Shown: positions 1,597-31,142 of the stretch, piece after piece
How the letters are laid out: every line of letters starts with the position of its first letter
Position numbering within the stretch: position 1 is the first letter of the stretch
Assembly (NCBI GenBank): GCA_001802945.1
Contig: MHAK01000050.1
Coordinates: 1 to 32,143 of the forward strand
Length of the DNA stretch: 32,143 nucleotides
Origin: Ignavibacteria bacterium RIFCSPLOWO2_12_FULL_56_21
GTDB lineage: Bacteria > Bacteroidota > Ignavibacteria > UBA10030
Direction: 5' to 3'
The notes under the pieces: generated by a model
The model's database searches: none
What the model was told of the DNA's origin: nothing
Seen by the model: the letters and a program-made list of their open reading frames with translations, nothing else
Translations under genes and position numbers: made by a program

Positions 1597-1671
1597 ACTC
1601 CGCATTCACTTCTGCAACTTGTCTCTCGATAACGTCGTTCCTTGATGCACCTCCATCACCTCAGAGAGATC

Positions 1672-4600: not shown

Positions 4601-5028
4601 ATGTGTTTGTTGCGATGTTCTACGGTGTTCTTGAACCGAAGAAGCGTATGCTCCGGTATATTTGCGCGGGAATTCCGACGCCGATCCTGGTGCGCAACGG
4701 GCGGGCATCCTACCTTCCTCAAACGCATGGCGATCGATTTCCGCTCGGCATTTTGTCTGGAGTGCGATACAAAGAAGCAAAAATTCCGCTCCGCCCGAAC
4801 GACCTTGTGATCTTCTACACGGATGGCATTGTGGAAGCAATGAACCATACAAAGGAGGAATTCGGATTCGAGCGGCTGTTACATAGCGCCGAAGAACTTG
4901 CATCCGAAACGACGGAATCCGTCGTTCGTAAACTCATGGACAACGTTGGACGTTTTACGGAAAACGCTCCCCAGGACGATGACATATCGATGGTCGTCCT
5001 CAGAGTGGAGAAGGGAGGCCGGTCATGA
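1672..5028 (+). CDS. Beta-propeller sensor (Reg_prop/Y_Y_Y) fused to a SpoIIE/PP2C phosphatase
   Basis: ATG 1672 is preferred because it has a purine-rich site and starts directly at a signal peptide (MRTLLLLLVSLAVLPGRVHA). TTG 1642 and ATG 1645 would add ten or nine residues. In the resulting 1118-residue protein, residues ~25-735 hold repeated two-component-regulator propeller blades (for example SSGTVWVGTNKGLF, NGDVWCATSSGGLV, DGLVWAGSSEGLTK). Residues ~750-820 are a Y_Y_Y domain (FQYRLDGVDTSWSD), ~827-853 a membrane helix, then a short coiled linker. Residues ~880-1118 are a SpoIIE-type PP2C phosphatase with GGDFYDF (~911), LGDVSGHG (~928), FYTDGIVEAMN (~1048) and QDDDISMVVL (~1102), so the metal-binding acidic residues are kept. 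It should sense a periplasmic ligand, probably a carbohydrate, and dephosphorylate a cytoplasmic STAS protein such as the one at 6391. The next gene overlaps by 4 bp. Confidence 0.93.
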   Translation: MRTLLLLLVSLAVLPGRVHAQRERLVLRTYGVNDGLPSQEVRSVVRDSLGLVWVGTATGLAVSSGDAFVNAERAFIITFPPSPISQVAVHAREGGLLVSGAQGTAVSVSFVRQDPYRKGYHWKSLFSEIPDNVLATWNFTSIFRTRMKEVLIGTKGHGVWTRVDTGKVMDAYSFMHAELRKVGEGLTVTAIVEDSSGTVWVGTNKGLFTYLDASLLQVPAHLSELRHSPIRTLTVARDGSLWISADGRGLFHVQAGIAVHPRKIAGIPGAAVTSISCSPNGDVWCATSSGGLVRLRNGKISVFTRSDGLPTNAFHCVHADDDGLVWAGSSEGLTKILPESYLLYSETDGLPRGAFFGVTKAPNGDLWFSGTGALVRMRGSAIRSWKTQSSIGNLPLLKPVVDSQGQVWMLSARGVVRFGGNTFTLFADSLIDELYASVCRLKFHPQGGIVLLTPTYLRRFRNGATTTILKGERLQDFVFDRAGNIWAYSFPAVWKVALNDSVTPLGDIGFPVNITTGHGDSVFVLNRLKGFQSQYELEHMDSVSARDMNDDKSIKTRGYVVDGMVTKSGRRIITTTIAVTEQLVGDDRLKFLASTENMAILSPLYERSDGSILLFTVTSKNLGFYHLDLNKGSLIKQPLLNSSIIREMRAGPLGIYRVGGSSLVKGLQLLTEDSSGVLWAATPVGIMSFPPSGLQYPVRAPVLWKIVANHAVFYSSSAADDFRYVTFRAAPLLEGQYDPVGYFEGQRLTLPSSMNNLSFVFADRSYRTETGVFFQYRLDGVDTSWSDPVSEMEARYYDVDQGTHRFRVRSMTPDGLISKEHWVDVKIIVPFWKATWFAALSIVTVLYGSGRLYARRIRQLREESDRSTLQAVRENELHMAKTLQAGMLPAACPQIRGFAFAAHSQPASEVGGDFYDFLQEENRVGIVLGDVSGHGITGAMIVGMARTSLRFASSQLDAPAQILSVANERLRQDISRNVFVAMFYGVLEPKKRMLRYICAGIPTPILVRNGRASYLPQTHGDRFPLGILSGVRYKEAKIPLRPNDLVIFYTDGIVEAMNHTKEEFGFERLLHSAEELASETTESVVRKLMDNVGRFTENAPQDDDISMVVLRVEKGGRS

Positions 5029-8089: not shown

Positions 8090-8241
8090 TCATCTCCGAA
8101 GACGTCCTTTGGCGCAAGCGTTGGGCGTTCCAGGAACCGGAATTTCCAGGTTCCGTTGAGCGACCGAAAGAACGGCGAGCCTTCGCGGCCCACAGAAATC
8201 CGGCAAGTATCGGAGCTGCGCGGCGCATGGTATTGTCTCAC
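8090..8241 (-). pseudogene. Remnant of the N-terminus of a GH2 beta-galactosidase (lacZ-like)
   Basis: On the minus strand the frame starting at GTG 8241 overlaps the galT stop as GTGA, the same 4-bp coupling as galK-galT. It encodes SPFFRSLNGTWKF followed by RFLERPTLAPKDVFGDEF. This closely resembles the SPFxxSLNGTWKFxxxxxPxxxPxDF segment near the start of LacZ-type GH2 beta-galactosidases. Similarity stops around position 8090, and the frame then runs through the mgsA terminator and into antisense mgsA. A full LacZ has ~1000 residues, so less than 5% remains. The first ~20 residues do not match the usual ENP-region, so the 5' part is also damaged. It indicates an ancestral lacI-galK-galT-lacZ operon that lost lacZ. 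Confidence 0.6.
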
Positions 8242-9266
8242 GTGAGGGTTTTCACGAACGTGGATCTCAGGAGCTTCGCACTTTCTTCTGGCGTCACATC
8301 GCGTTGCGGCTCGGCCAACATTTCATACCCGACCATGAATTTTCTGATGTTTGCGGAGCGGAGGAGCGGCGGATAGAAATGCATGTGGAGGCACCATTCG
8401 GGATGCCGATGTCCGTCTGTCGGCGCCTGATGAATTCCGGAGGAGTATGGAAATGGGGCTTGGAAGAGCGCATCGTACGATTTCGTCAACCTGCTCAGGG
8501 CATTCGCGAAGAATGACACGTCGGAAAGTGAGAAGTCGAGAATCGACTCCATCCGACGGCGCGGCACGATCATTGTCTCGAACGGCCACACGGCCCAGAA
8601 TGGCGTCAAGACGACAAATCTGTCATTTTCGAACACGATCCGGTCCGACGCGCGTATTTCAAACCGGACATAGTCCGATAAAATGGCATGTTTCTTCCGG
8701 GAATAGTACTTCCTGCACTGGAGAAGCTCTTTAGCCGTTTCCATCGGTATGTTTTCCTGCGCCCAGATCTGACAGTGGGGATGTGGATTGCTGTTCCCCA
8801 TCATCGCTCCCTTGTTCTCGAAGATCTGGATGTGGCGTATGCGCCTGTTCTCGGCGATCGACGCACATTCTTTCTTCCAGGTCTCGATGACGTTCACAAT
8901 ATCGGGTTCGCTCATGTCCGCGAGCGACAGATCGTGACGCGGTGAAAAATTAACGACACGACAGACGCCGCGCTCCGGCCGCGCCGTAAAGAACGGATTC
9001 TTGGTTTCATACTTCTCCACCGGGCTCCCGTCAAGCGCAGCGAAGTCGTTCGTAAATACATATGTCGATGTATAGTTCGGATTACGTTCTCCGTTTGCGC
9101 GGACGTTTCCGGGGCAAAGGTAGCAGGCGGGGTCGTACGCCGCCCGTGGATGTTCCATCGCTTCGCTGATTTCTCCCTGCCACGGTCGTTGCGTTCTCTG
9201 CGGCGAAACGAGGACCCAGTCCCCCGTGAGTATGTTTTTCCTTCGATGCGGTCGGGTGAACGTCAT
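8238..9266 (-). CDS. galT: Galactose-1-phosphate uridylyltransferase
   Basis: This 342-residue class I GalT carries out the second step of the Leloir pathway, swapping UMP between UDP-glucose and galactose-1-phosphate. The active-site HPH motif is at residues 162-164 (SNPHPHCQIWAQ), with His164 the nucleophile, equivalent to E. coli His166. Cys48 and Cys51 (CYLCPGN) match the metal-binding pair. The N-terminal HRRKNILTGDWVLVSPQR and C-terminal HMHFYPPLLRSANIRKFMVGYEML segments are typical. Length matches the family. Its ATG (9264-9266) overlaps the galK stop as ATGA, and its own stop overlaps the GTG of the lacZ remnant, so it sits inside a coupled operon. Confidence 0.96.
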   Translation of the reverse strand: MTFTRPHRRKNILTGDWVLVSPQRTQRPWQGEISEAMEHPRAAYDPACYLCPGNVRANGERNPNYTSTYVFTNDFAALDGSPVEKYETKNPFFTARPERGVCRVVNFSPRHDLSLADMSEPDIVNVIETWKKECASIAENRRIRHIQIFENKGAMMGNSNPHPHCQIWAQENIPMETAKELLQCRKYYSRKKHAILSDYVRFEIRASDRIVFENDRFVVLTPFWAVWPFETMIVPRRRMESILDFSLSDVSFFANALSRLTKSYDALFQAPFPYSSGIHQAPTDGHRHPEWCLHMHFYPPLLRSANIRKFMVGYEMLAEPQRDVTPEESAKLLRSTFVKTLT

Positions 9267-10462
9267 GCCGACCCCTCCGGCATTGAAGTTACGCTCGCCG
9301 CGCGGGGCCGGCTGATCACACTCGTTCCTCCGACAATCGTTGTATGATACACCGGTGGCGTTCTCCCATACGTTTTCCGGAAACGCTCCTCAACGGTCCT
9401 TCGAACCGACCCGACAGCATCGGGCCGAACAAGATTGATCGTGCAACCCCCGAATCCTCCCCCCATCATGCGCGCGCCATAGACGCCCGGCAGGCCTCGG
9501 ACTATGTCAACGAGTTGGTCGAGTTCCCGACAACTCACTTCGTATTCGTTTTTTAGACCTTCGTGCGTTTCAAACATCTTTTCTCCAAACGCGCTAAGCC
9601 GGCCGGTTTGGAGGTCTTCGCATCCCCGAAGAAGACGGGCATTTTCCCGGATGACGTAGGCACACCGGTTGAATACGGTTGCATCCATTTCAGATCGAGC
9701 AGATTCGAGCAACTCCAGAGGAACGTCCCTGAGGGATGCAATGTGCGGATGGCGTCGCGAAAGCGCTGCGATCCCACGTCCACATTCTTCACGCCGCTTA
9801 TTGTATGCTGACGATGCCAACGAATGAGATACCTCGGTATTAAAGAGAAGAATGGCCGCGTCTCCCCGTATTTCCACGGACGTATATTCCAGCGATCGGC
9901 AGTCGATCCGGAGAACCGCGTTTTCTTTGGCAAAAATATTGATGAACTGGTCCATGATGCCGCATTTGACACCGACAAATTCGCTCTCCGACCGTTGCGC
10001 GAGTTTGGCTAGCGACATCCGGTCGATGCCGAGTTCGAATACTTCGTTCAGCGCGAATGCAAATCCTGCCTCAACAGCAGCGGACGATGAAAGACCGGCC
10101 CCGATCGGGATGTCCCCTCCGAAGACGCAGTTGACTCCGCGGATTTGATATCCGCACTTTTGGATCTGGTCCAGGACGCCGATCAAATAGTTCGGCCAAC
10201 CCCGAGGGGCCGGCTGAAGATCGTTCAGATCCGCGATATACCGGTCTTTCATGTCGAGAGCGGTCATTACACACTGACTGTCCGTCCGCGGCGTAACCGC
10301 CAGGATGATCGCACGGTCGATCGCCGCCGGCAGGACATAACCCAGGTTGTAGTCTGTATGCTCGCCGATCAGATTCACCCGACCAGGGGACCGGACCACG
10401 AGAGGTTCCTCCCCGTAGAGTTCTTTGAATGTTCGGACGGTCTCAGAAACGTCGTTTGTCAT
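9263..10462 (-). CDS. galK: Galactokinase
   Basis: I place the start at ATG 10462, giving 399 residues. The open frame extends upstream to 10570, but that part is basic, overlaps the regulator gene and has no galactokinase similarity. The galactokinase signature is present (RSPGRVNLIGEHTDYNLGYVLPAAID, near residues 24-49). So are the GHMP ATP loop (GDIPIGAGLSSSAAVEAGFA, near ~115), VKCGIMDQF with the catalytic Asp, and the C-terminal GARMMGGGFGGCTINLV. It phosphorylates galactose at C1 using ATP in the cytoplasm. It follows the LacI-family regulator by 28 bp and overlaps galT by 4 bp. No epimerase (galE) or mutarotase is in the window. Confidence 0.96.
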   Translation of the reverse strand: MTNDVSETVRTFKELYGEEPLVVRSPGRVNLIGEHTDYNLGYVLPAAIDRAIILAVTPRTDSQCVMTALDMKDRYIADLNDLQPAPRGWPNYLIGVLDQIQKCGYQIRGVNCVFGGDIPIGAGLSSSAAVEAGFAFALNEVFELGIDRMSLAKLAQRSESEFVGVKCGIMDQFINIFAKENAVLRIDCRSLEYTSVEIRGDAAILLFNTEVSHSLASSAYNKRREECGRGIAALSRRHPHIASLRDVPLELLESARSEMDATVFNRCAYVIRENARLLRGCEDLQTGRLSAFGEKMFETHEGLKNEYEVSCRELDQLVDIVRGLPGVYGARMMGGGFGGCTINLVRPDAVGSVRRTVEERFRKTYGRTPPVYHTTIVGGTSVISRPRAASVTSMPEGSA

Positions 10463-10490
10463 GGACGCGAAGAAGTGTGTCGCCGAATCA

Positions 10491-11492
10491 TCACGTCGAG
10501 CCACGCGGAATGAGTTTCGCTTCGAGAACGATCTCCTGGATCTCCGTCGTTGCGTTCTCGATCGTTTCAATCAGGACCTGCGCCGCCTTCCTGCCCATCT
10601 CGAATGAAGGTTGATCGACGGTCGTGATCTGTGGCTCAACGAGAGTGGTGATCTTATTGTTCGAAAACCCGACGATGGCAACGTCCGCAGGAATACGGAG
10701 GCCGGCTTCCTTGATACGTTGATACGCACCAATGGCGACGGGGTCGTTCACGGCAAAGACGGCGTCGGGAAGGTCTTGTTCCGCTATGAGGGAACTCATC
10801 GAGTCGTACCCGTTCTGTTCGTGCAATCCACCATACCGGATCCAGCGCTCGCGTACTTCAATCTCTGCGCGCCGAAGAGCCAGAAGATATCCGTTTTTCC
10901 TCTTGATACAGATGCCAAGTTCTTTCGGTCCGGCAAAATGAGCGATCTTCCTGTATCCTTTGTCGATCAGAAAAGAAACTGCGTTGTATGCGCATTGTTC
11001 GTCGTCGATCACCACTCTACTGGCTTCAACGTCGTCAAGCGCGCGATCAAAGAACACTACCGGAATGTGCCGCTTTTGAAGGTCGTGGAAATGTTCGCCG
11101 TACTTCGTGTTCTGCGAGATCGACGCGATGACACCGGCGACGTGGTGGTGCATCAAGACGGTGGTGTTCACCACCTCGCGCTCGAAACTTTCGTTCGATT
11201 GACAGAGGAGGAGCGTATAGCCGGATTGGAAAGCGACATCTTCTATTCCGCTGATGGCCGAGGCGAAGAAATCGTGCTTTATCTCCGGCACAATGACGCC
11301 GATTGTCGACGAACGCCGTCCCTTGAGACTCTGCGCAATCGGATTAGGGAAGTAGCGAAGATCTTTCGCCGTCTGTCGGATCAGCTCCTTCGTTTTCTCA
11401 CGTATGTCAGGATGGTTGCTCAGCGCCTTCGAAACTGTGGAGGGCGAAAGCCCAAGTTCTCTTGCGATATCTAAGAGTGTGGCGTTTTTCAC
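10491..11492 (-). CDS. LacI-family transcriptional regulator of the galactose operon
   Basis: This 333-residue protein has the LacI N-terminal helix-turn-helix (LLDIARELGLSPSTVSKALSNHPDI, residues ~4-28), the hinge region (LRYFPNPIAQSLKGRRSSTIGVIVP) and a periplasmic-binding-protein-like effector domain. Effector-domain landmarks include VAGVIASISQNT, PVVFFDRALDDVEASRVVIDDEQ and DAVFAVNDPVAIGAYQRIKEAGLRIPADVAIVGFSN. It is the first gene of the lacI-galK-galT operon on the minus strand. A perfect 14-bp palindrome 15 bp upstream of its start and downstream of a consensus promoter implies that it represses its own operon. Galactose or a galactoside is the likely inducer, inferred from the neighbours. 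Confidence 0.95.
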   Translation of the reverse strand: MKNATLLDIARELGLSPSTVSKALSNHPDIREKTKELIRQTAKDLRYFPNPIAQSLKGRRSSTIGVIVPEIKHDFFASAISGIEDVAFQSGYTLLLCQSNESFEREVVNTTVLMHHHVAGVIASISQNTKYGEHFHDLQKRHIPVVFFDRALDDVEASRVVIDDEQCAYNAVSFLIDKGYRKIAHFAGPKELGICIKRKNGYLLALRRAEIEVRERWIRYGGLHEQNGYDSMSSLIAEQDLPDAVFAVNDPVAIGAYQRIKEAGLRIPADVAIVGFSNNKITTLVEPQITTVDQPSFEMGRKAAQVLIETIENATTEIQEIVLEAKLIPRGST

Positions 11493-13640: not shown

Positions 13641-16295
13641 ATGAACCGTTCACTCCGCGTCCTCGTGCTGATGGTATCTGCTGTATGCGCCGCAACCGCA
13701 CAGACATTGGAGATCCACACGATCAACGTCGGCTGGGGAAATTCCGCCTTCGTCAAAGGTCCGAATGGGACGACGATTCTCATCGAGGCGGGAAACACGG
13801 GGAAAGGAACGAACGAGGTGGTCCCCTATCTGCAATCGATCGGTCTTGCGCCATCGGCTGGGTTCGACTACACCATCGCTGGACATCAGCATTGCGATCA
13901 CATCGGCGGACTCGACGAGGTCATCAATGCCGGTTACGATGTCCGCATCCGGAATTACTATAACGGCTCCTCCTACAGCTCAACGTGCGTCACACAATGG
14001 AACACCACCGCCGCGGCCACAACAGCCGGCGCGCTTGTGGTCATGACCGTCGGCACAACGATCGACCTCGGCAACGGCGCTCTGCTTACCTGTATTGCCA
14101 GCAATGGATCGATCTTGGGAGGAGGCAATGTGGCGGTGTCGGACGAGAACGACCGGTCGCTCGCGGTCCTCATCAAGTACGGAGAGTTCGATTACCTTTG
14201 GTCGAGCGATCTCGGCGGTGGATCGGACGACGGATCATGCACGGGCCGCAGCACGAATCAGGTGAATGTCGAAACCTCCGTCATCAATGCCATTTCGCCG
14301 GGAGGTGCACGTCCGCTTATCTCCGACGGCGGCATTGACGTCCTGGCCGTTAATCACCATGGAAGTGAGAGCAGCACAAACAAAGACTGGTTCAACAAGT
14401 CGCGGCCGGCTCTTGCCATCGTTTCCACGGGGGCCGGACAATCATCCGGCTGGGATCTTCCGCGCATCGACGTGGTTGAGCACGTTCTTCTCGCGCAAGC
14501 GACCGCCTGCATCACGGCTCCTCCGACGCTTGTTCTGCAGACGGAAGAAGGGGCGCCCACCGGCTCATTGACGTCATTCGCGGGATATTGCTCGGGCGAC
14601 ATTGTCGTCACGACGACCGGCACCGGGACGTTCAATGTGTCGGCCGACGGCGCTGTGACACAGGGACCCGATGAACGAACTGCGGCCGGATTGCCGCTCT
14701 CACTTGCGCTGGATGACGCAGGAGGAGGTGGCGATATCACGCCTCCGGTCATTTCCAACATTCAGGCCACGAACATTTCCACCACCGGCGCTACGATCAC
14801 CTGGACGACCGATGAACCGGCAACGTCTGTTGTCGATTACGGCCTGACTTCCGCGTATGGCAGCTCGCAATCGAATGCAACGCTCGTCACGAATCATAGT
14901 GTCAGTCTTTCCGGACTCAGCGCCTCGACGTTGTACCATTACCGGGTAACGTCTGCGGACGCAGCTTTGAACTCTGCATCTTCCAGCGATCAGAGTTTCA
15001 CGACAACTACCGGCGGCGGGGGCGGGACTGCTCACCTCGTGATCAGCGAAGTGTTGTATGATACGCCGGGCACGGATGCCGTGGAAGAATGGGTGGAGAT
15101 CTACAACCAGACGACCTCGACTATCGACGTGAGCGGATGGACGCTTACCGATAACAACGGCACGGGAACTTCCTACGCGTTTCCCGCCGGTACGACGATC
15201 CTTCCCGGAACCTACTTGACGGTTGCGGCTGATGCAGCCGGTTTCCAGGCGCTGTATGGGCGAAATGCCGATGTGTATGGCGCCATTCCAGCCCTGAATA
15301 ACGACGGCGAAACGCTCCTTCTGAAGAATGGGACGGTTATCGTCGATGCGGTGGCCTGGGAAGGTGGAGCGACTGCCGGACTTCCGGCCGGCTGGGGAAG
15401 CACAACATTACCGACTGCGCCGACCGGAAGCACGGTGGTCCGGACAGACGCGACAACCGACAGCGACTCGTATGCGGATTGGGGAACAGCGGCCAACAAC
15501 GGAAATCCGCAGACCCAAACGCTCGTGTCCGAGTATGCGCCGGCAAGCATGACGATCTCCACCGGAATCGCCGGCTCGGGCAATTACACGAATTTGGCGA
15601 CTGACAATGCTTCGTATGCGACGATCAATTCCACGACAAGCGGCACGCGGACGACGGATTGGTACGCCACCGTTACAATAGCGGAGGCACCAGCCAGCGT
15701 CACCGGACTCACGATCGTCTACAACGGCAAGCAGAGCCGCTCGGGTGTTCTGCAAAAGACGTATCTCTTCAACTATTCGTCCGGGGCCTGGAATCAGGTG
15801 GATTCAAGAAACGTCAGCACGACCGATGTGACCGTGACCTATTCCCCCGCCGTCCCGACGGAGTACGTCTCCGTGACAGGTCTTATTCGGGTTCGTGTAC
15901 TTTCCACATACAACAACAGGAATTTTACGACAAGCGCGGACTACGTGCATTACACGGTTGTCACCAGCGCCGGCGGCGCGGCGAGTACCAATGATGAGGG
16001 ATTTGCTCCGCTGCTGAAGTCGGAAGTCCCTGTCGGCTATGAACTCGGCCAGAATTATCCCAACCCGTTCAATCCGACGACCATCATACCTTTTCGATTG
16101 CGTCAGACGGAGCATGTTACCCTCAGGGTGTTCGACATGCTGGGACACGAGGTAATGGAGCTTGTGAATGACGTTGTCGCGGCGGGGTCTCATTCGATAG
16201 CGTTCAATGCGGCCCAACTCTCCAGCGGAACGTATGTGTATCACTTGGCGACTCCGACGTTCAATGCATCAAGGAGACTTACGCTGATTAAATGA
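13641..16295 (+). CDS. Secreted metallo-beta-lactamase-fold hydrolase with FN3, lamin-tail and T9SS domains
   Basis: This is an 884-residue secreted protein. Residues 1-20 are a signal peptide. Residues ~22-310 form a ComEC/Rec2-like metallo-beta-lactamase domain with H82-x-H84-x-D86-H87 (HQHCDH), LWSSDLGGG and NHHGSE, so the zinc ligands are present. Residues ~365-456 are an FN3-like domain of the purple-acid-phosphatase type (ITWTTDEPATSVVDYG). Residues ~463-587 are a lamin-tail domain (VISEVLYDTPG, EEWVEIYNQT, DVSGWTLTDNNG). A ~190-residue Thr/Ser-rich module follows, and residues ~797-884 are the T9SS sorting domain (NYPNPFNPTTIIPF). Related domain sets occur in extracellular nucleases, so DNA or a phosphodiester is a plausible substrate. 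AAGAGG lies before the start. The 250 bp upstream hold no clear promoter. Confidence 0.9.
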   Translation: MNRSLRVLVLMVSAVCAATAQTLEIHTINVGWGNSAFVKGPNGTTILIEAGNTGKGTNEVVPYLQSIGLAPSAGFDYTIAGHQHCDHIGGLDEVINAGYDVRIRNYYNGSSYSSTCVTQWNTTAAATTAGALVVMTVGTTIDLGNGALLTCIASNGSILGGGNVAVSDENDRSLAVLIKYGEFDYLWSSDLGGGSDDGSCTGRSTNQVNVETSVINAISPGGARPLISDGGIDVLAVNHHGSESSTNKDWFNKSRPALAIVSTGAGQSSGWDLPRIDVVEHVLLAQATACITAPPTLVLQTEEGAPTGSLTSFAGYCSGDIVVTTTGTGTFNVSADGAVTQGPDERTAAGLPLSLALDDAGGGGDITPPVISNIQATNISTTGATITWTTDEPATSVVDYGLTSAYGSSQSNATLVTNHSVSLSGLSASTLYHYRVTSADAALNSASSSDQSFTTTTGGGGGTAHLVISEVLYDTPGTDAVEEWVEIYNQTTSTIDVSGWTLTDNNGTGTSYAFPAGTTILPGTYLTVAADAAGFQALYGRNADVYGAIPALNNDGETLLLKNGTVIVDAVAWEGGATAGLPAGWGSTTLPTAPTGSTVVRTDATTDSDSYADWGTAANNGNPQTQTLVSEYAPASMTISTGIAGSGNYTNLATDNASYATINSTTSGTRTTDWYATVTIAEAPASVTGLTIVYNGKQSRSGVLQKTYLFNYSSGAWNQVDSRNVSTTDVTVTYSPAVPTEYVSVTGLIRVRVLSTYNNRNFTTSADYVHYTVVTSAGGAASTNDEGFAPLLKSEVPVGYELGQNYPNPFNPTTIIPFRLRQTEHVTLRVFDMLGHEVMELVNDVVAAGSHSIAFNAAQLSSGTYVYHLATPTFNASRRLTLIK

Positions 16296-16337
16296 AGAAC
16301 TTGTGTTGGAAAATTGGTGCGGTGGGAATGAGGAGCG

Positions 16338-16361
16338 TGGAATAGTGGAATAATGGAATTG
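16338..16361 (+). repeat. Octamer tandem repeat TGGAATAN (3 units)
   Basis: TGGAATAG, TGGAATAA and TGGAATTG follow each other directly with an 8-base period in the gap after the metallo-hydrolase gene, just ahead of its terminator. They are transcribed with that gene but outside its coding frame. Function is unknown. Confidence 0.5.
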
Positions 16362-16379
16362 TTGTATCTGTGATGCGAG

Positions 16380-16412
16380 GCCCCGGAGATGATCCGGGGC
16401 TTCGTGTTTGTA
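16380..16412 (+). terminator. Rho-independent terminator after the metallo-hydrolase gene
   Basis: GCCCCGGA (16380-16387) and TCCGGGGC (16393-16400) are perfect 8-bp arms around a 5-base loop. TTCGTGTTTGT follows. The T run is broken, but the stem is very strong. Confidence 0.75.
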
Positions 16413-16529
16413 CTCTCTTTCCGAAAATGGTAACAAGCGCCATGTCGAGACCAAGAATCACACCTGGTTCCACTTTCTTCCCACGCCCGTTTCCCGTATG
16501 TTGAATTGGCATTGCCCCGGGGTTAACGC

Positions 16530-18293
16530 ATGAGCACTCTTCCGCACCTGAAGACATACCTCTGCCTCGCAGTCGCGTTCCTGTTTCAGTCCCTTTTCTC
16601 CCAGGATCACTCCGAGAGCCCCATCCCGAGCCCCTTTTCAAATGTCGTCGGAGCTGAAACATTTCCGGCGCCGGATGGCTCGATCTTCGTCATCGGACTT
16701 GCAGAGACTCTTCGTAACGTCACTTCGTATTCGACCAGTTTTGAGTCCCGACTGTTCATGGTTGCATACGACCCCTTCGGACAGTTCGGCAGCATCGTTG
16801 CACTCGACAGCGGAGCCAGAGGAGAAGAGTATTTTGCTTCATCGTTCGAAGACAAATTCCGCGTCTCGTGTGCACACAATCATTCGGGAAGCACGACCAT
16901 CGTCTGGAAGAAGCAGCGCAGAATTTCGAGCGATATCGTGTTCCCACGCGTTCTGCAGCAACCGCAGGTGTCGATCGCATTCAACGCGTACGATGCTGTG
17001 CGCATCGTCTCCACGACTCCGCTATCCAATAACCCCCATGTCACCGCTGATTCCGCCGGCGATTTCCACGTTGTCTGGGAATCGGTGGCGCCGCTCCATC
17101 CGATCGGCACTGATTGGATTCCGTATGGTCCGGATTCAAATTATTACTTCGAGACTTCAGCGATCATGTATAGGATGATCCACGCTGATGGCCAGTCGGA
17201 TTCGGTCATCGAATTGGGCAAGGGCTTCCGGCCTCACATTCATGCCGATGCCGCCGGAACAGTGTCTGTCACATGGCTGCGAGCGGATTCTTCCAATGCT
17301 CCTGTTTTCCAACTTGCGATCCGAAAAGTAGCCGCAGGAATCTGGGGGCCGACAACGATCATTGTTGACTCGGTGCAATGCTTACAGGAATCCGGCATCA
17401 ATTCATTGCCCCCGGAGTACAGAAGTTTTGTCGACGACTCGGCGAATATGTTCGCCGCATGGACCGATGTACTTCCGTACTCCGACAGCCGTATCGCCGT
17501 GGCCAAATATTCTCCCGACGCTGACGTACAGATCGATTCACTCTTCGTTCCAAACACGCTCGGCCAAGCGGTTGACATCGTCGTCGACCGCTACGGCATT
17601 GCATTCGCTCTTTGGAATACGTGGGATAACGCATCGGAATGGACGATGCATTATTCCCGGAGCGAGCCCGGGCGAAAGCTGTTTTCCGAGGTGAGGGATT
17701 TTCATTCCCCGAAGGGGGCCGCGATGGGCATGACGATCGTGCTGAATTCCCAGGGGACTCCGAATTGTGTGTTCGACGATGGCATAGACGGCATTGGATA
17801 TCTTCGAAATCTGGATGCTGGAAAGGATTCCGTCATTCGCGTGAGCCCCGGCTCGTCCTTGTATAACGGCATTTCTCATTGGAATTTTGACTCTCCCGAA
17901 ACTCCGGGCATGCGCGCATCCATCGATGTGAACGACCGGGTGGTTCTCGCACTGGACGGAACGACAAGCCGGCTGGCGATCTTCAGCAATGCATTGACCG
18001 AAGTCGCTTCGCCTCCCGCTGATATTCCCCTTTCCGCGCACCTCTTGCCGAATTACCCTAATCCGTTCAATCCGACGACTGTGATCCACTACGTCATTCC
18101 CGAACAATCATTCGTCACCGTCACTGTCGTTGATATCCTTGGAAGAACCGTGAGAATCCTGGTCGACCGTGTGATGCCCGCAGGGACGCATCGTACAGAG
18201 TTCGACGGCAATGGGCTTGCCAGCGGTGTGTATCTGTACCGACTTTCCACCGGTCGGTTCTCCACCACACGAACCATGCTTCTATTGAAATAA
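16530..18293 (+). CDS. T9SS cargo protein of unknown function, propeller-like
   Basis: This 587-residue protein has an N-terminal signal stretch (YLCLAVAFLFQSLFS) and a C-terminal T9SS sorting domain (residues ~496-587, LPNYPNPFNPTTVIHYVI, then FVTVTVVDILGRTVRILVD and ASGVYLYRLSTG). The middle has repeated beta-rich segments with Trp at similar places (SAGDFHVVWESVAP, AAGTVSVTWLRADS, DSANMFAAWTDVLP, RYGIAFALWNTWD). These suggest a beta-propeller of roughly 60-residue blades. No catalytic motif was recognised. It should be exported by Sec and then carried to the cell surface by T9SS. Only 15 bases separate it from the alpha-mannosidase gene, so the two probably share a transcript. Confidence 0.88.
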   Translation: MSTLPHLKTYLCLAVAFLFQSLFSQDHSESPIPSPFSNVVGAETFPAPDGSIFVIGLAETLRNVTSYSTSFESRLFMVAYDPFGQFGSIVALDSGARGEEYFASSFEDKFRVSCAHNHSGSTTIVWKKQRRISSDIVFPRVLQQPQVSIAFNAYDAVRIVSTTPLSNNPHVTADSAGDFHVVWESVAPLHPIGTDWIPYGPDSNYYFETSAIMYRMIHADGQSDSVIELGKGFRPHIHADAAGTVSVTWLRADSSNAPVFQLAIRKVAAGIWGPTTIIVDSVQCLQESGINSLPPEYRSFVDDSANMFAAWTDVLPYSDSRIAVAKYSPDADVQIDSLFVPNTLGQAVDIVVDRYGIAFALWNTWDNASEWTMHYSRSEPGRKLFSEVRDFHSPKGAAMGMTIVLNSQGTPNCVFDDGIDGIGYLRNLDAGKDSVIRVSPGSSLYNGISHWNFDSPETPGMRASIDVNDRVVLALDGTTSRLAIFSNALTEVASPPADIPLSAHLLPNYPNPFNPTTVIHYVIPEQSFVTVTVVDILGRTVRILVDRVMPAGTHRTEFDGNGLASGVYLYRLSTGRFSTTRTMLLLK

Positions 18294-18308: not shown

Positions 18309-21300
18309 ATGAAACTCCTCATTTTCTTCCTGCTTCCAGTCGCTCTCTACGCCCAATCACCTGTACGGCGCCTCGTTTCCGTTCTCGACTCCATCACCGT
18401 CACGTCATTCAACGATTGGCGCATCAGCCCGGACCTCAGGACGTACCGCCCCGCCGGCGATCCTCGTCAGCCGGAGTTCGACGATTCCGGCTGGGACATT
18501 CTGAAGATCGACCAGAGCGTGTATCCCGACTCGTGCTGGATCCGGAAAGAGATCGCCCTGCCCGCAAAAATTCTCGGCCGGCCGGTCAGCGGTTCGGTCC
18601 GGTTTGTGGTCTCGGTCGACGATTACGGCTCCCTCTGGGTGAACGGATCATCACTCGGCCATTTCCCGTGGGACGGCGACTTTGAGCTCACGCCGAGCGG
18701 CCAGCCGGGACAGCGCTTCGTCCTCGCCATCAGAGCGATCAATACCGGCGGACCCCTGCGCCTCTTGCGAGCCGAGGTCCGGACTTCCACGACGGAATCG
18801 ATCCGACAGGCAGCCGACGATTTGATTCTTTCCCTTCGCGTCGGCGAAAAGCTGCTCTCCTTCGACACATACCAGACCAACGCGACGCGGAAGGTCGATC
18901 CTGGCGTCGATAAGTCGACTATCCCCGCCTCGGATCGGAGACGCTTGAACGACGTGTTGCAGTCCTCCACAAGCCTCATCGACGTGGGTTCGCTCACCGA
19001 CGGACCGGAATCAGCTTTTGCAGCCTCCATCGAGAGATGGAAAGAGGCCGTCAAGCCGGTCTCCGACTTTGCGAAGCAATTCTCCCTTCAGTTCTCTTCG
19101 AACGCCCATATCGACGCCGCATGGCTCTGGCGGTCTGTCGAAACGATCGAGGTCTGCAACAACACGTTTCGTTCTGCCAACAACATTCTGGATGCCCGCC
19201 CTGATGCTACCTATTCGCAAAGCGCCGCCGCATATTATGATTGGATGGAGCGACTCTACCCTGAAACTTTCGAGAAGATCCGGAAGCGCGTGAAAGAAGG
19301 ACGTTGGGAGATCACGGGGGGCATGTGGGTCGAGCCCGACTGCAATCTGCCGAGCGGCGACTCGTGGGCGCGCCATCTGTTGTATGCTAAACGCTATTTC
19401 AAGGAGAAATTCGGCGTCGACGTGAAGATCGGCTGGAATCCCGATTCGTTCGGCTATAACGGCAACATGCCGATGATCTACCAACAAGCCGGCGTCGATG
19501 TTTTCATCACCCAAAAGATCGGCTGGAACGACACGAATGTATTCCCCCATCGGATCTTCTGGTGGGAATCCCCGGACGGGTCGAGGATTCTCTCCCTCTT
19601 CCCGTTCGATTACGTGAACGACATTGGACAGCCGCATGGTCTCGTCGATTGGCTGCGGCAATTCGAGGCGAACACGGGATTTCGCAAGCTCATCGTTCTG
19701 TTCGGAATCGGCAACCATGGGGGCGGACCGACCGTCGAAATGATGAAGCGTATCGACCGGCTGAAGACACTCGCCATCTATCCGACGGTCGAATTCGGCA
19801 CTTCGGGGTCGTATGTTTCCTGGCTACGCAAACAGGATCTCACAACTCTACCCGTTTGGAAGGACGAACTGTATCTCGAATATCATCAAGGGACATTTAC
19901 AACGCAGGCGGCGATGAAAAAGGAGAATCGGGAGAACGAGACTCTTTTGACATCCGCCGAAACGTTCGGCAGCATTGCGGGTTTCTACGGCCGACCGTAC
20001 CCGGCAGACGCTCTTCGGACGGCCTGGAGAACGGTCCTCTTCAATCAATTCCACGATATCCTGCCCGGTTCAGGTATTCGGGAGGTTTACATCGACGCAG
20101 CTGCTGAGAACGCCGGGGCTCGTGCAACGGCAGAGTGGGAGTTGAACGGGGCGTTCGAGCATCTTGCTTCACGCATCAATACAGCCACTCTTCCCGCGGG
20201 GAATCCGGTGGTATTATTCAATACGCTCGCATGGAATCGCAATGAAATCGCCTGTGTGCAACTCCCTACCGGCGATACTGCATCATACGCGGTCTTCACT
20301 TCCGACGGACGGGAGGTTCCATCGCAGTTCATCCGGCGCGACCGGCTGCACGCGGAGATCATATTCCCGGCGGAGGTTCCTTCCCTCGGCCATGCCACGT
20401 ACCTTCTCCGCAAAGGTTCCTTCATAAGCGACCGATCGCGCGTATCAGTGTCGTCAAGCGGATTGGAGAATGAGAGATTCCGGCTTGTCATAGACCCGTC
20501 CACTGGCTGGGTGAGCAGTATTTTCGACAAGCAGGCCAAACGAGAGATCCTTGCGGGACCTGCGAATGAACTGCAGGTTCTCGAGGATAAGCCGAGAGCG
20601 TGGGATGCATGGAACATCGGGCTGACCGGCGTGAAGTATCCTGTGAAATTCCGGAAAATGGAGGTAGTGGAACGGGGACCGCTGAGGGCAACACTACGAT
20701 TGCACTACACGTACTTGAAGCCGGGCGTGAAAAAAGAGTTTCCGACAGAAGATTTCCCGAGCACATTCTTCACGCAGGATATAACGCTGAACAGCGGTAT
20801 TGATCGAATCGATTTTACGACCGTCGTCGACTGGTGGGAGGAAAAGACGATGCTGAAGGTGGCATTCCCTGTGGCCGTGGACGATTCGGCGGCGACGTAT
20901 GAGATTCCGTACGGAACTATCCGGCGTTCAACGAGGAATGAAAACTCCTTCGAGAAAGCGCAGATCGAAGTGCCCTCGCATCGTTGGGCCGACCTTTCCG
21001 ATGGGGGATATGGCGTCAGCCTGCTGAACAGGTCGAAATACGGGCATGACATCAAGGGGAACGTCATGCGGCTGTCGCTCCTTCGCTCGCCCAAGTGGCC
21101 AGACCCGACCGCCGACCGTGGAAAACACGTGATCGAATACGCCCTGTGGCCGCATTCCGGCACATGGAGTTCCGCGGGAACGGTTCGGCGAGGCTACGAA
21201 TACAACTCACCCTTGAAAGCTGTTTTCGTGGCACGTCACCGCGGGCCGGAGCCGGCTGTAAAGAGCTACATCGGACTGATCGGCAACGGGCTCATATTGA

Positions 21301-21521
21301 CGTCTGTAAAAAGGGCGGAAGAGGGAAATGCGTGGGTAGCAACGCTCTACAATACGCTCAGTGCGAACGTTAACGGAGAAATGATCCTCCCGAGGTCTCC
21401 CAAAAAGGCCGTACGATCGGATATTCTCGAATCATCAGGAGAAACTCTTCGGGTATCAGGACGGTCAGTGCGAGTGTCCGTCGGACCGCAGGGATTGGCG
21501 ATAGTGAGGCTGGAGTGGTGA
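18309..21521 (+). CDS. Exported GH38 alpha-mannosidase
   Basis: This 1070-residue protein has a signal peptide (MKLLIFFLLPVALYAQ). Residues ~35-160 are a beta-sandwich resembling a GH2-type sugar-binding domain (DDSGWDILKI, WIRKEIALP, VDDYGSLWVNGSSLG). The GH38 catalytic domain follows: NAHIDAAWLWR (near 265), EITGGMWVEPDCNLPSG, GWNPDSFGYNGNMP with the nucleophile Asp near 378, HGLVDWL, and GNHGGGP near 467. The helical middle domain and the long C-terminal beta domain (LENERFRLVIDPSTGWVSSIFDKQAKREIL) are complete. It should remove alpha-linked mannose from glycans outside the cytoplasm. The first residue after the signal region is Gln, not a lipobox Cys, so it is not a lipoprotein, and it lacks a T9SS domain. 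Confidence 0.95.
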   Translation: MKLLIFFLLPVALYAQSPVRRLVSVLDSITVTSFNDWRISPDLRTYRPAGDPRQPEFDDSGWDILKIDQSVYPDSCWIRKEIALPAKILGRPVSGSVRFVVSVDDYGSLWVNGSSLGHFPWDGDFELTPSGQPGQRFVLAIRAINTGGPLRLLRAEVRTSTTESIRQAADDLILSLRVGEKLLSFDTYQTNATRKVDPGVDKSTIPASDRRRLNDVLQSSTSLIDVGSLTDGPESAFAASIERWKEAVKPVSDFAKQFSLQFSSNAHIDAAWLWRSVETIEVCNNTFRSANNILDARPDATYSQSAAAYYDWMERLYPETFEKIRKRVKEGRWEITGGMWVEPDCNLPSGDSWARHLLYAKRYFKEKFGVDVKIGWNPDSFGYNGNMPMIYQQAGVDVFITQKIGWNDTNVFPHRIFWWESPDGSRILSLFPFDYVNDIGQPHGLVDWLRQFEANTGFRKLIVLFGIGNHGGGPTVEMMKRIDRLKTLAIYPTVEFGTSGSYVSWLRKQDLTTLPVWKDELYLEYHQGTFTTQAAMKKENRENETLLTSAETFGSIAGFYGRPYPADALRTAWRTVLFNQFHDILPGSGIREVYIDAAAENAGARATAEWELNGAFEHLASRINTATLPAGNPVVLFNTLAWNRNEIACVQLPTGDTASYAVFTSDGREVPSQFIRRDRLHAEIIFPAEVPSLGHATYLLRKGSFISDRSRVSVSSSGLENERFRLVIDPSTGWVSSIFDKQAKREILAGPANELQVLEDKPRAWDAWNIGLTGVKYPVKFRKMEVVERGPLRATLRLHYTYLKPGVKKEFPTEDFPSTFFTQDITLNSGIDRIDFTTVVDWWEEKTMLKVAFPVAVDDSAATYEIPYGTIRRSTRNENSFEKAQIEVPSHRWADLSDGGYGVSLLNRSKYGHDIKGNVMRLSLLRSPKWPDPTADRGKHVIEYALWPHSGTWSSAGTVRRGYEYNSPLKAVFVARHRGPEPAVKSYIGLIGNGLILTSVKRAEEGNAWVATLYNTLSANVNGEMILPRSPKKAVRSDILESSGETLRVSGRSVRVSVGPQGLAIVRLEW

Positions 21522-26196: not shown

Positions 26197-26261
26197 GATG
26201 AGCGTTGGTGTTCATCGGACGATCAGCCCATGCGAACTACTTCCTTGAAGCGCCATTCCTA

Positions 26262-27911
26262 ATGCATCATCTCAGAAATGTCTCACTGGTAATCGTCGTC
26301 TGTGTAATCGTGCCGCAGTTCTCGTCTGCGCAATGGAGTCCGACCGGACTGGCGATTTGTGACACAAGCGCGAATCCGGTTTCAGGAGGGTTCATGTCTC
26401 CGCAGATCTGTTCCGACGATAATGGAGGGGCATACGTCTGCTGGATGGACAGGCGAAACGGACAAGTGGACATATACGCACAGCACGTCGCCAACGACGG
26501 GACGCTTTTATGGCAGAAGAACGGCATTCCGATTGTGGACAACGTGATTGCTCAACGGTTTCCCCAAATGGTCAGCGACGGTGGTGGAGGGGCGTACATA
26601 GCATGGGAAGACGATCAGGCAGACTACACGTATGTATTCGCCCAGCGCATCAACGCTGAGGGACAAAAGCTATGGCAGTCGAACGGCATTAAGGCAGCAG
26701 AGACCGGGGGATTGTTCATCAGCCTGGACAGGGATTCACACAATGGACTGTTGCTGGGATGGAGCACGACATATAGTGTATTTGTTCAACGTCTTGACAG
26801 CATGGGTAATCGCGTATGGGCTGATAGTGGGACGCAGATAACGAACCGACTCGGGACGGTCTATCCAGGGGCTTTGCGCGTGAAGAGCGACAGTCACGGC
26901 GGAATGTTTGTTTGCTGGTCGGAAGGCATTGACTACGAACAAATGGAACTCTACGTGCAACGAGTGGACAGCTCCGGCGTCATCGCATTCCAAGCGGATG
27001 GATTGCCCTTGACAAACAATGGCACGCAGAACTCCAACATTCATCTCATCAGTGATAAAGCGGGCAATCTGATTGTTCAATGGGGAAGTGCACCGCCTGT
27101 GCCCTTAGACACCGGTCGCACGTTTATTCAGAGAATTGACCTTCAAGGCGTCACGACTTGGGGACCCACTGGTATCATGCTTCTCGAGACCGGCGGAAGC
27201 GGTTCGGGAAAAAGGAATACAAACGACGGGCACGGGGGCGCCTTCATCGGGTACAAGAACCACATCCAGCATGTCGACAGTGCTGGGAATTTCCTGTGGC
27301 CGGGCAGTGGTGCTGATTTCACACCTTTGAAGATTCACTTCAACGAATCCGAGCAGATCCTGAATGGAGAGGACGGCATCTGGAACATCTGGACACAGTA
27401 CACAGGAGATGACGACGTGTACGCCCAGTATATCAACCGAGATGGGATTGCGAAGTGGGGGGCAGATGGGAGAAATGTATGCGGCGTCGTATCCCTGCAA
27501 GATTGGCAACGTGGGACGTATACCGGCAATGGTACGGCAATAATAGTCTGGATGGACACACGGGATTCTCGAAGTGCTGTCTACGCGGCCAAACTTGATA
27601 CTGGAGGCATCGTAACATCTGTCGGTGGCGATGAAACGCAAATGCCCCAATCCTTCCAACTCGAACAAAACTATCCGAATCCGTTCAATCCCTCCACGAT
27701 TATCCGGTATTCATTATCGCGTGGAAGTTTCGTATCCCTGAAGGTGCTCGATATTCTTGGAAGAGAACTTCGAACTCTCGTCAACGAAGAACAGTCGACC
27801 GGCGGCCACGAATTGCAATTCAACGCGGAAGGGCTCTCCTCCGGCATGTATTTTTACCGGTTACGTGCCGGCAACCAAACCCTCACGAAGAAAATGCTCC
27901 TGGTGCAATAA
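26262..27911 (+). CDS. T9SS cargo protein with repeated beta-propeller-like blades
   Basis: ATG 26262 starts a signal peptide (LVIVVCVIVPQFSSAQ). The in-frame start at 26205 adds 19 unsupported residues. The 549-residue protein carries several ~50-60-residue repeats with the pattern DxxGGAYxxWxDxRxxxxDIYAQxxxxxGxxLWxxxGxPI (for example NNGGAYVCWMDRRNG-like, DGGGGAYIAWEDDQ and SHGGMFVCWSEG), consistent with a beta-propeller. Residues ~460-549 are the T9SS sorting domain (NYPNPFNPSTIIRYSL, VSLKVLDILGRELRTLV, SSGMYFYRLRAGNQTLTKKMLL). No catalytic residues were recognised. A surface adhesin or binding protein is possible. Only 18 bases separate it from the next T9SS cargo gene, so they are likely co-transcribed. 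Confidence 0.88.
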   Translation: MHHLRNVSLVIVVCVIVPQFSSAQWSPTGLAICDTSANPVSGGFMSPQICSDDNGGAYVCWMDRRNGQVDIYAQHVANDGTLLWQKNGIPIVDNVIAQRFPQMVSDGGGGAYIAWEDDQADYTYVFAQRINAEGQKLWQSNGIKAAETGGLFISLDRDSHNGLLLGWSTTYSVFVQRLDSMGNRVWADSGTQITNRLGTVYPGALRVKSDSHGGMFVCWSEGIDYEQMELYVQRVDSSGVIAFQADGLPLTNNGTQNSNIHLISDKAGNLIVQWGSAPPVPLDTGRTFIQRIDLQGVTTWGPTGIMLLETGGSGSGKRNTNDGHGGAFIGYKNHIQHVDSAGNFLWPGSGADFTPLKIHFNESEQILNGEDGIWNIWTQYTGDDDVYAQYINRDGIAKWGADGRNVCGVVSLQDWQRGTYTGNGTAIIVWMDTRDSRSAVYAAKLDTGGIVTSVGGDETQMPQSFQLEQNYPNPFNPSTIIRYSLSRGSFVSLKVLDILGRELRTLVNEEQSTGGHELQFNAEGLSSGMYFYRLRAGNQTLTKKMLLVQ

Positions 27912-27929
27912 TGCAAAGGAGTAACGCAC

Positions 27930-30155
27930 ATGAAACCTACTCTTCACATCGTAACCCTGGCGTTCGGCATGCTATTGTTATCTGCATCTTTACTGCAAAG
28001 TCAGCAAACCGATACCTCAAGTTACTTCCCATTGGGTCTGTGGGGCATCTGGATTGACTTGGATGCACCTCCGTTCACCGCTCCTCTGAACGCTAACCAA
28101 TGGGCGAATGAGCAATCCAATTGGTCCGGAATTAACGGAAATTACCTAGTCTATTGGATTCCCAGGTCAGTCGAGGATACCGTAATGGATCTGGCCGAAT
28201 CAATCAATTACAGGATAGACGTTGCCGACGACAACTACGGTTTGCCCCACAACACCAATTCGCTTGTATACTGGCTTTATCACAGCACACTCGGGGATTC
28301 AACGACGGCGATATCACAAATCAACAGCCTTAAGAACAAGTACGGCTCGCGACCCGGATTCTTTTCGTATTCGTTCGGTCAGGAAGGGCCCGTCGATTAT
28401 CCGGTTCTTTGGCCCGGCGTTGGATTCCTGACCCGCAAGATCCACGAATTGGACCCTCAAAGAAAATCGTATATGCTTGCTCACGTTCCTCTTGTCGGAT
28501 TCTTGAATGCGGCCCCAGCGCTGGACATTTATGAATCCGAGGATTACCCATTTTATGATACAACGTATTCCGTTTATTCAAGCCAACAATCGCGACTTAG
28601 CCATCTTGCATCCCTGTTTGACAGTCTGAAAGTCCTCTTTCGCGGGAGGCATACGGAATGGCATTTTCTCATGCAAGCACATAGAGAAAATCGCCCATGG
28701 CATCCGGATTTAAGACGACCCACTTTTTACGAACTTCGTGCTCAGGTCTATCTAGCGCTTTCTCGTGGTGCGCGCGGAATTACTTCCTTTGTGTATGGTT
28801 CAGATCAAAGAGAAGGCGACGTGTCGAGATTTGTGGGGCTGGTCGATGAAAGCCGAAATCCGTTTACTCTGACTACTGATCCTGAAGGAATAGAAGGATT
28901 CGCGAATCTCGCGAACGTGCATGAACAAATTCGAGTAATTGGTCCAACTCTTCGAAAGCTGAAGGTCTATGAGGCGTTTCCAAGAACTTCCATACCTTCG
29001 GGAAATGCCGCTCGAATCGTCTCGGTCTCGGGCGACAAGATTGAAATCGGCACATTCAAGAGAATCGACCAAGGAAACGATTCTACGGCCTACTTCATGC
29101 TGGTGAATCGAGTCTGCAATAACGAGAATGGATCTGTTGCGTCTTCGCAGAACATCACTGTCACATTTGGGAATTCTGTCCCATGGGAGATCACGGAAGT
29201 AGCATCCGGTTCATCGAGTATCATCAATATCGAGGGTGACTTCGCAGCCACCTTACAACCCGGAGACGGAAAGCTTTACAAGATTGGTGCGCTCACTTCG
29301 GTTTCCGGTTCCATCACGAGCTCAACTGCGTGGAGCGGCAAATATTACATCGCCTCAAGTGTGACGGTCAATTCCGGCATAACTCTCACGATCTCGGCCG
29401 GATCCTACGTTTGCGCTCCATCAGGCGCGAGCCTCATCTGCAATGGCTCTCTTTATGTGGCTGGTTCAGCGCAAGCTCCGGTCACGATGGATGTCATTGG
29501 CAGCGGTACTTGGGGCGGCATCTATTTCCAATCTGGAAGCGGAGGTTCAGTGTCATATGCCACCTTACGATATGCTACAAAGGGTATTCGCGTTGCATCT
29601 TCGTCACCTGTCATTCAACACTGCACAATCGAAGGATTCTCCGAACAAGGGATTTACATTACTAACGGCAGTCCCAGTGTTCAGAGCAACCTGATCAATG
29701 GCTGGAGTGGAACTGCTCATGTTGGAACAGGAATTTATGTCGACAACAGTGGAATTGGCAGCTCGACGCTCGCCATTTTCGGTAATAATACCGTCAAAGG
29801 CTGTATTACTGGCATTAGCATAGCCGGACCATTTGACTCAGTAGCTCAAAACACCATAGGAACCTACTCTGGCGGGATAAGCACTAGCAATGACTACGGA
29901 ATTGTCCGCTATGGTGGCGGAATAATCTCAGAGAACAAAGTCTATGGTGACAATGACGATTCCCAAGGAATCTTGCTTTGGTCGGGATCGGGTGGATCCG
30001 TCTCAGCCATATACAATCTATTGGACCATCATGGGCTTGGCTTGATCGATGAGGGTTGGCAATCAGGGTCCGTGACACATAATTCCTTTACGAACAATAG
30101 CGTCAGTTTTTTGAGCAGCGATGGTGAGATGGAAGCGCACTATAATGACTTCTAG
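27930..30155 (+). CDS. TIM-barrel-like plus beta-helix secreted protein, cut short by an in-frame TAG
   Basis: A signal peptide (MKPTLHIVTLAFGMLLLSASLLQSQ) is followed by ~400 residues resembling a glycoside-hydrolase TIM barrel: YFPLGLWGIW, GFFSYSFGQEGPVDYP, ALDIYESEDYPFY, and FYELRAQVYLALSRGARGITSFVYG. A right-handed parallel beta-helix region starts near residue 450 (SSPVIQHCTIEGFSEQGIYITNGSPSVQSNLI). The frame stops at TAG 30153-30155 after HYNDF, yet the same frame stays open for 172 more codons. Those codons finish the helix and add a T9SS sorting domain, so the intact protein would be ~913 residues. A nonsense mutation, sequencing error or stop readthrough are all possible. Catalytic acids cannot be assigned with confidence. 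ATG 27930 has AAAGGAG upstream. Confidence 0.85.
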   Translation: MKPTLHIVTLAFGMLLLSASLLQSQQTDTSSYFPLGLWGIWIDLDAPPFTAPLNANQWANEQSNWSGINGNYLVYWIPRSVEDTVMDLAESINYRIDVADDNYGLPHNTNSLVYWLYHSTLGDSTTAISQINSLKNKYGSRPGFFSYSFGQEGPVDYPVLWPGVGFLTRKIHELDPQRKSYMLAHVPLVGFLNAAPALDIYESEDYPFYDTTYSVYSSQQSRLSHLASLFDSLKVLFRGRHTEWHFLMQAHRENRPWHPDLRRPTFYELRAQVYLALSRGARGITSFVYGSDQREGDVSRFVGLVDESRNPFTLTTDPEGIEGFANLANVHEQIRVIGPTLRKLKVYEAFPRTSIPSGNAARIVSVSGDKIEIGTFKRIDQGNDSTAYFMLVNRVCNNENGSVASSQNITVTFGNSVPWEITEVASGSSSIINIEGDFAATLQPGDGKLYKIGALTSVSGSITSSTAWSGKYYIASSVTVNSGITLTISAGSYVCAPSGASLICNGSLYVAGSAQAPVTMDVIGSGTWGGIYFQSGSGGSVSYATLRYATKGIRVASSSPVIQHCTIEGFSEQGIYITNGSPSVQSNLINGWSGTAHVGTGIYVDNSGIGSSTLAIFGNNTVKGCITGISIAGPFDSVAQNTIGTYSGGISTSNDYGIVRYGGGIISENKVYGDNDDSQGILLWSGSGGSVSAIYNLLDHHGLGLIDEGWQSGSVTHNSFTNNSVSFLSSDGEMEAHYNDF

Positions 30156-30671
30156 GACAGCGAGGTCACGAGCTACAATATCTGGCTCAACAGCGATCCC
30201 CCAGTTTACGTTGACAACAATTTCCTCGAATCATGGAAATCGTCGTCAGATCCAAAGTACTATGATTGTTGTTCACCTTCGGACCAGTGGTACCCTGCCT
30301 TGGACGATTCGAACGGTGCGGGTCCATCGTGGAGAACCGTTACTCCAAAGAAGCACGCGCAAGATCTCATTGAAGCGAAGTCTTCATCCGTCCCTACCTC
30401 TTACGCTATTTCGGCGTATCCGAACCCATTCAATCCCTCGACGACTATCGTCATGGATTTGCCGGAAGGAGGGGTTGTGAGCTTGAAGATTTTTGACGCA
30501 TTGGGACGACAAGTGAGTAATCTGCTGGATGGTTTCATGTCAGCAGGTCGTCATCAATGTGTATGGAACGGCTGGAACTCGCAGGGAAACCAAGTTTCCA
30601 GTGGTGTATACTTTCTGAAGATGGAAACAGCAGAGCGAATCATCAGCCACAAACTCCTTTTGGCCAAATAG
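30156..30671 (+). pseudogene. C-terminal continuation of the split T9SS cargo protein (sorting domain)
   Basis: This stretch is in the same frame as the gene ending at 30155, with no shift. Its first part (SEVTSYNIWLNSDPPVYVDNNF) continues the beta-helix pattern, and after a linker the last ~90 residues are a full T9SS sorting domain (YPNPFNPSTTIVMDL, VSLKIFDALGRQVSNLLDG, SSGVYFLKMETAERIISHKLLLAK). It has no ribosome site or signal peptide of its own. A gene finder might start it at TTG 30300, but the protein would then remain in the cytoplasm and be pointless. It can only work if the TAG is read through or is an error. Confidence 0.8.
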
Positions 30672-30683
30672 GGAGACGAAGTC

Positions 30684-31142
30684 ATGAAATCCATCGCCCT
30701 TGGTTTATTATCGATGCTCTTCTCTACATCAACTTTGGCCCAAGTATTAATCGTTTCGCAAAGCTCAATCTCGAAGAATGAAGATGGCCTCACGTGCCTT
30801 TCGACGAATGCAAGCGCCATTCCTCAAGATGCTCATATCGATCTGGTTGTTCTGAGGGTGGAATTGGGCAATGCAGAGTTTGAGCACTTTGAAAACGTCG
30901 CACTCTTGGACGGGGAAGGCCGACGGGTATCAATTGCAGCCATAAGCCCAACGAAGTCGACCAACAGAGGAACGCAGGTTCTGAAGTTTCTCGTCACGGA
31001 GCATTTACAAAAACTTCGGGCACGGCAAACGGACCAATGCGAATTCATAATCAAACCCATGAAGACCGCATCTGTCCTTGATCTCGGTTCTCTGAGAACG
31101 CGCGACTTCGAACTCGTAGTCTATTATACGATGGAACGCTAG
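30684..31142 (+). CDS. Small exported protein of unknown function
   Basis: This 152-residue protein begins with a clear signal peptide (MKSIALGLLSMLFSTSTLAQ). GGGAG lies at a good distance before ATG 30684, 12 bases after the upstream stop. The mature part is mixed alpha/beta with two cysteines (Cys in GLTCLST and in DQCEFI) that could form a disulfide. I recognise no family. The spacing indicates that it belongs to the same transcript as the two T9SS cargo genes before it. A weak terminator follows. Confidence 0.75.
   Translation: MKSIALGLLSMLFSTSTLAQVLIVSQSSISKNEDGLTCLSTNASAIPQDAHIDLVVLRVELGNAEFEHFENVALLDGEGRRVSIAAISPTKSTNRGTQVLKFLVTEHLQKLRARQTDQCEFIIKPMKTASVLDLGSLRTRDFELVVYYTMER

Follow-up and report, generated by a model that had tools for sequence, protein, structure and literature searches.

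The split gene and its sorting domain

The DNA analysed here, referred to as the window, is 32,143 nucleotides long and is the whole of contig C50 of the source genome (G000), a draft of 3.36 Mb in 138 contigs that is 95.1% complete. It contains a gene whose reading frame is divided by one in-frame TAG, with the following features and neighbours.

26205 to 27911, + strand: intact upstream T9SS cargo gene, 568 amino acids, with a PF18962 tail, 18 bases ahead of the split gene
27930 to 30155, + strand: main ORF, 741 amino acids, with a Sec-type N-terminal signal (judged by eye) and a beta-helix from residue ~460, ending at the in-frame TAG
30153 to 30155, + strand: in-frame TAG, codon 742, aligned with TGG (Trp) in the orthologue of genome G003
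30156 to 30671, + strand: same-frame continuation of 171 codons plus a terminal TAG (30669-30671), holding a type A T9SS sorting domain (PF18962)
30234 to 30236, + strand: TGG (Trp), codon 769, aligned with an in-frame TAG in the G003 orthologue
30684 to 31142, + strand: next gene, 152 amino acids, with a signal-peptide-like start and no Pfam family

An ORF and frame check agrees with the first-pass annotation that the frame from 27930 ends at TAG 30153-30155 and then continues unshifted. The annotation counted 172 codons downstream; sense codons in this frame occupy 30156-30668 and number 171, and the higher figure is reached only if the final stop is included. With the TAG of codon 742 written as x, the flanking sequence reads NDF-x-DSEVTSYNIWLNSD. 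Apart from this TAG, no second stop or frameshift occurs across the 913 codons of the split gene.

The T9SS sorting domain that had been proposed beyond the TAG corresponds to a Por_Secre_tail match (PF18962, E 3e-7, above the cut-off) at residues 88-167 of the post-stop segment, which is in the frame of the cargo but lies behind the TAG. The same segment also matches FlgD_ig (PF13860, E 3e-8). The proposal that the extra codons complete the beta-helix is only partly supported: a structure model predicts the helix confidently at residues 460-640, but residues 672-839, a region that includes the stop, are modelled at low confidence. Residues 30-450 are homologous to an uninterrupted cargo of genome G059 (45% identity).

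A type A C-terminal domain is necessary and sufficient for T9SS export (PMC10202324), in line with the annotation's premise that export requires this domain. The T9SS translocon is represented in the source genome by a SprA/Sov homologue (TIGR04189, on contig C12; 789 bits against a cut-off of 200), alongside 83 matches to T9SS tails. Given this homologue and these tails, a cargo without its tail should mean loss of export, and the tail-less form should remain periplasmic. The split gene has the common features of type A T9SS cargo (PF18962, PMC10202324), namely a signal peptide, a beta-rich cargo, a sorting domain with a PNPFNPST motif, and SprA/Sov in the same genome. Unlike such cargo, it has a stop codon between the cargo and the sorting domain.

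An orthologue with a TAG at a different codon

Among 150 related genomes searched for orthologues, one (G003, contig C30), which belongs to the same family as the source but to another genus, holds a close relative spanning window residues 450-913. Scans of additional genome contigs and of viral contigs gave no further close orthologue. The two sequences are 48% identical over 467 columns in an alignment that runs across both stops, and a gene resembling the 152-amino-acid next gene of the window also lies 3' of the G003 orthologue (compared by eye). Aligning homologues at this codon, one of the checks that the first-pass annotation suggested, puts the window TAG opposite TGG in G003, and the in-frame TAG of G003 (L008:1000-1002) opposite TGG codon 769 of the window. 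The stop position is therefore not kept between the orthologues, TAG and TGG being swapped. These two private TAGs are 27 codons apart, both at Trp codons, and each lies a short way ahead of the sorting domain. The available part of the G003 copy has no further stop and no frameshift.

Because this same-frame run of 171 codons with a T9SS tail aligns over its whole length to the orthologue, it is not a product of chance. Past both stops, codon positions 1 and 2 are 58% identical, versus 15% for fourfold sites, which indicates that, over most of the period since the two genes diverged, selection acted on the tail at the protein level.

The alignment also bears on whether the locus comprises two separate genes, the C-terminal part starting independently inside the frame. 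Two ORFs, one beginning with TTG (30300-30671) and one beginning with ATG in another frame (30121-30480), could be taken to suggest such an arrangement. However, there is no ATG within the first 40 codons past the stop, the segment aligns as one continuous protein with G003, which has TGG at codon 742, and a sorting domain with neither a Sec signal nor a cargo would be useless. We consider two genes highly improbable.

Frequency of split genes and identity of the stop

The stretches examined contain 134 T9SS tails, of which three (3/134) belong to genes cut by a single in-frame stop, in each case TAG. These are the window gene, its G003 orthologue, and a second G000 cargo (C20, L158:2349-2351) with ...TTDGGASW...-type repeats, in which a TAG after 166 codons is followed by 255 codons that include the sorting domain. 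A homology (BLAST) search across in-frame stops covered ~1.0 Mb of sequence from G000 and 1.3 Mb from G003, with overlapping stretches included in these totals; antisense shadow frames swamped the unfiltered search, and a coding filter was therefore applied. This search added two G003 TAGs, in the genes for shikimate kinase (aroK, L243:992) and glutaminyl-tRNA synthetase (glnS, L102:11942, minus strand).

Verified single-stop split genes in the two genomes thus carry TAG in 5/5 cases. Genome codon usage predicts that TAG should make up 47-50% of new nonsense mutations, an expectation under which 5/5 has p ~0.03, a weak excess that was noticed post hoc. Of the nonsense routes open to either T9SS cargo gene, TGG-to-TAG changes account for just 6-22%, and it is difficult to put down to chance alone a pair of orthologues that each carry a private Trp-codon TAG, 27 codons apart. 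Such a pair could arise if a dispensable cargo is lost repeatedly, if both drafts contain consensus errors or if UAG is tolerated.

Other candidates from these searches were set aside. TGA and TAA entries of the same BLAST search were judged to reflect neighbouring genes or non-coding leader sequences, save L160:8626 (G000:C95, near the contig end), a degenerate fragment of a T9SS tail in which TGA occupies the conserved Trp position and the upstream part is gone. A codon-score scan for split genes returned mostly adjacent genes that share a frame, and a TAA reported in prfB is that gene's own terminator.

TAG codons in glnS and aroK of G003

The glnS TAG (G003:C73, ~21942) occupies a position that is Tyr in 11/11 compared relatives, and it resides in the only glnS match of G003. 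The aroK TAG (G003:C87, ~5992) is at a Glu found in 10/10 compared relatives, with no decay downstream. Over 497 glnS codons there are 10 amino-acid changes on the G003 side versus 19 on that of its sister, with 205 synonymous differences, so that constraint on G003 glnS after the stop is, judging from these counts, not relaxed. Qualifying matches occur in 77/98 genomes of the order for glnS and in 85/98 for aroK, and none of the other matches listed for either gene has the same TAG.

The source genome and its congener G001 lack a glnS match at E 1e-100, though most of the order has one; both presumably use the transamidation route.

The glnS TAG is part of a cluster of five conserved-site changes in 12 codons, all of them transversions (AAC>AAG, CTT>GTT, TAC>TAG, AAG>AAC and TGC>GGC), which suggests a consensus error there. 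An error of consensus or assembly could likewise account for the window TAG, in which case position 30153 would begin a sense codon in the organism, probably TGG, and the gene would be intact. The source genome is a draft in 138 contigs, the glnS cluster in G003 looks like a bad consensus patch, and TAGs in single-copy, strictly constrained glnS and aroK are easier to understand as errors than as real nulls. However, the change at the window TAG is a plain transition, and random errors would not be expected to favour TAG exclusively, though five cases are few. The orthologue, at 48% identity, is too distant to reveal a comparable transversion cluster around the window TAG. Overall, we view an error as a possible but doubtful explanation, and for the TGG-to-TAG change in the window it is less likely than a real allele.

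Tests of amber decoding and readthrough

If some ribosomes read through UAG, using a near-cognate tRNA or an unknown amber-reading one, the split gene would yield two products, a short one in the periplasm and a long one that is exported; in a wider version of this idea, UAG would be generally tolerated or decoded. That each orthologue has a single in-frame TAG just ahead of the sorting domain is consistent with such a mechanism, as are the exclusive use of TAG in the verified split genes and the G003 TAGs in glnS and aroK, past which constraint is not relaxed. We retain amber readthrough as a candidate because the closest orthologue has a nearby TAG and G003 has two in housekeeping genes.

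The evidence on the decoding machinery points the other way. The first-pass annotation had proposed looking for an amber suppressor tRNA, but no CUA anticodon is found among the 43 tRNAs read in G000 or the 42 read in G003, in genomes that are 94-95% complete, so a gene could be missing. Among the G000 tRNAs inspected, the near-cognate ones have ordinary 5-bp anticodon stems, and unpinned 4-bp stems are absent. Two odd tRNA matches were rejected as suppressor candidates, one being a tRNA-Cys at a contig end and the other a partial tRNA-Val copy. The latter (G000:C18, L069:14445-14513) is a second copy of tRNA-Val (CAC), 124 bases past the intact gene, whose 5' part has been replaced. PylS (TIGR02367) has no match in G000 and a best score of 25.5 bits in G003, against a cut-off of 178, and pyrrolysine decoding was rejected on this ground. 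RF1 is intact in both genomes, prfA scoring over the cut-off with no internal stop.

Use of TAG as a terminator is ordinary: it ends 25.5% of 655 genes in G000 and 20% of 856 in G003, and global TAG recoding is rejected because TAG ends this 20-26% of genes. Backup stops are not enriched behind TAG, the next in-frame stop being no nearer than after TGA. Regarding a stimulatory RNA structure, no fold is clearly more stable than shuffled sequences (z -1.32 to 0.03, with -0.07 and 0.03 around the two TAGs), and the split-gene TAGs have no flanking codons in common. mRNA editing of UAG to UGG was also rejected: TadA requires a tRNA-Arg-like UACG, and a hairpin of the required kind is absent at both TAGs. 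A literature search on amber readthrough combined with type IX secretion found nothing. Pyrrolysine (PylS/tRNA-Pyl) or suppressor-tRNA decoding resembles the present case in placing in-frame UAG codons within otherwise normal genes, but here PylS is lacking, no CUA tRNA is found, RF1 is intact and TAG is a normal terminator. The change of stop position between the orthologues, and the restriction of the glnS and aroK TAGs to G003 among the listed matches of the order, also argue against readthrough, which we regard as unlikely.

A bolder proposal is that some Ignavibacteriales, with no CUA tRNA and with UAG still a terminator, translate in-frame UAG often enough for private ambers to persist in cargo genes and even in those for GlnRS and shikimate kinase, and that UAGs near the sorting domain would split cargo into periplasmic and exported forms. 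This seems decidedly improbable.

A probable recent nonsense change in a cargo gene

The explanation that we prefer, with a probability of about 0.52, is a recent single-base TGG-to-TAG nonsense change at codon 742 of a non-essential T9SS cargo gene, leaving a truncation allele. The orthologue has the sense codon TGG at this position and the window gene has no other lesion, a pattern that fits a nonsense allele. Translation would stop after codon 741, and the product of 741 amino acids would reach the periplasm by Sec. Without the C-terminal sorting domain, this product would be neither exported nor anchored, and would stay in the periplasm. The allele would be either segregating or at the onset of pseudogene decay. 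This account involves three inferences: the TAG is genuinely present in the population, the cell can do without the gene, and the product is retained in the periplasm. What counts against a nonsense change is the independent Trp-codon TAG in the closest orthologue, together with the 5/5 TAG result (p ~0.03).

Among the three options raised in the first-pass annotation, a fresh nonsense mutation and a read or assembly error fit best. The third, amber readthrough, received no positive support from the tRNA set (no CUA anticodon), RF1 (intact), TAG use (ordinary) or RNA elements (none).

In-frame stops that persist only briefly, in genes under purifying selection, are widespread among bacteria (PMC7918605), and since such young stops have already been described, the split gene adds a case of a known kind. 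As in those examples (Belinky et al. 2021, PMC7918605), there is a single stop, often TAG, in a gene that is otherwise intact and constrained. There, however, cases were admitted when several species had the stop at the same codon, whereas the TAGs of the two orthologues are at different codons.

If the TAG is a nonsense allele or a consensus error, the case is ordinary, and its lesson is that surface-protein genes in draft genomes need a read check before being called truncated. If UAG is in fact read, one codon would set the share of cargo leaving the periplasm, and the glnS and aroK TAGs of G003 would point to an unrecognised, tolerated form of amber decoding.

Other genes on the contig

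The contig carries four T9SS cargo genes arranged in two pairs (window 13641-18293 and 26205-30671), and one of these genes has lamin-tail and purple-acid-phosphatase N-terminal domains. Directly 3' of two T9SS cargo genes is a gene for a GH38 alpha-mannosidase (18309-21521), and a galT and galK pair is located at 8238-10570 (minus strand). A protein of 1128 amino acids (window 1642-5028) consists of two-component regulator propeller repeats fused to a SpoIIE phosphatase domain.
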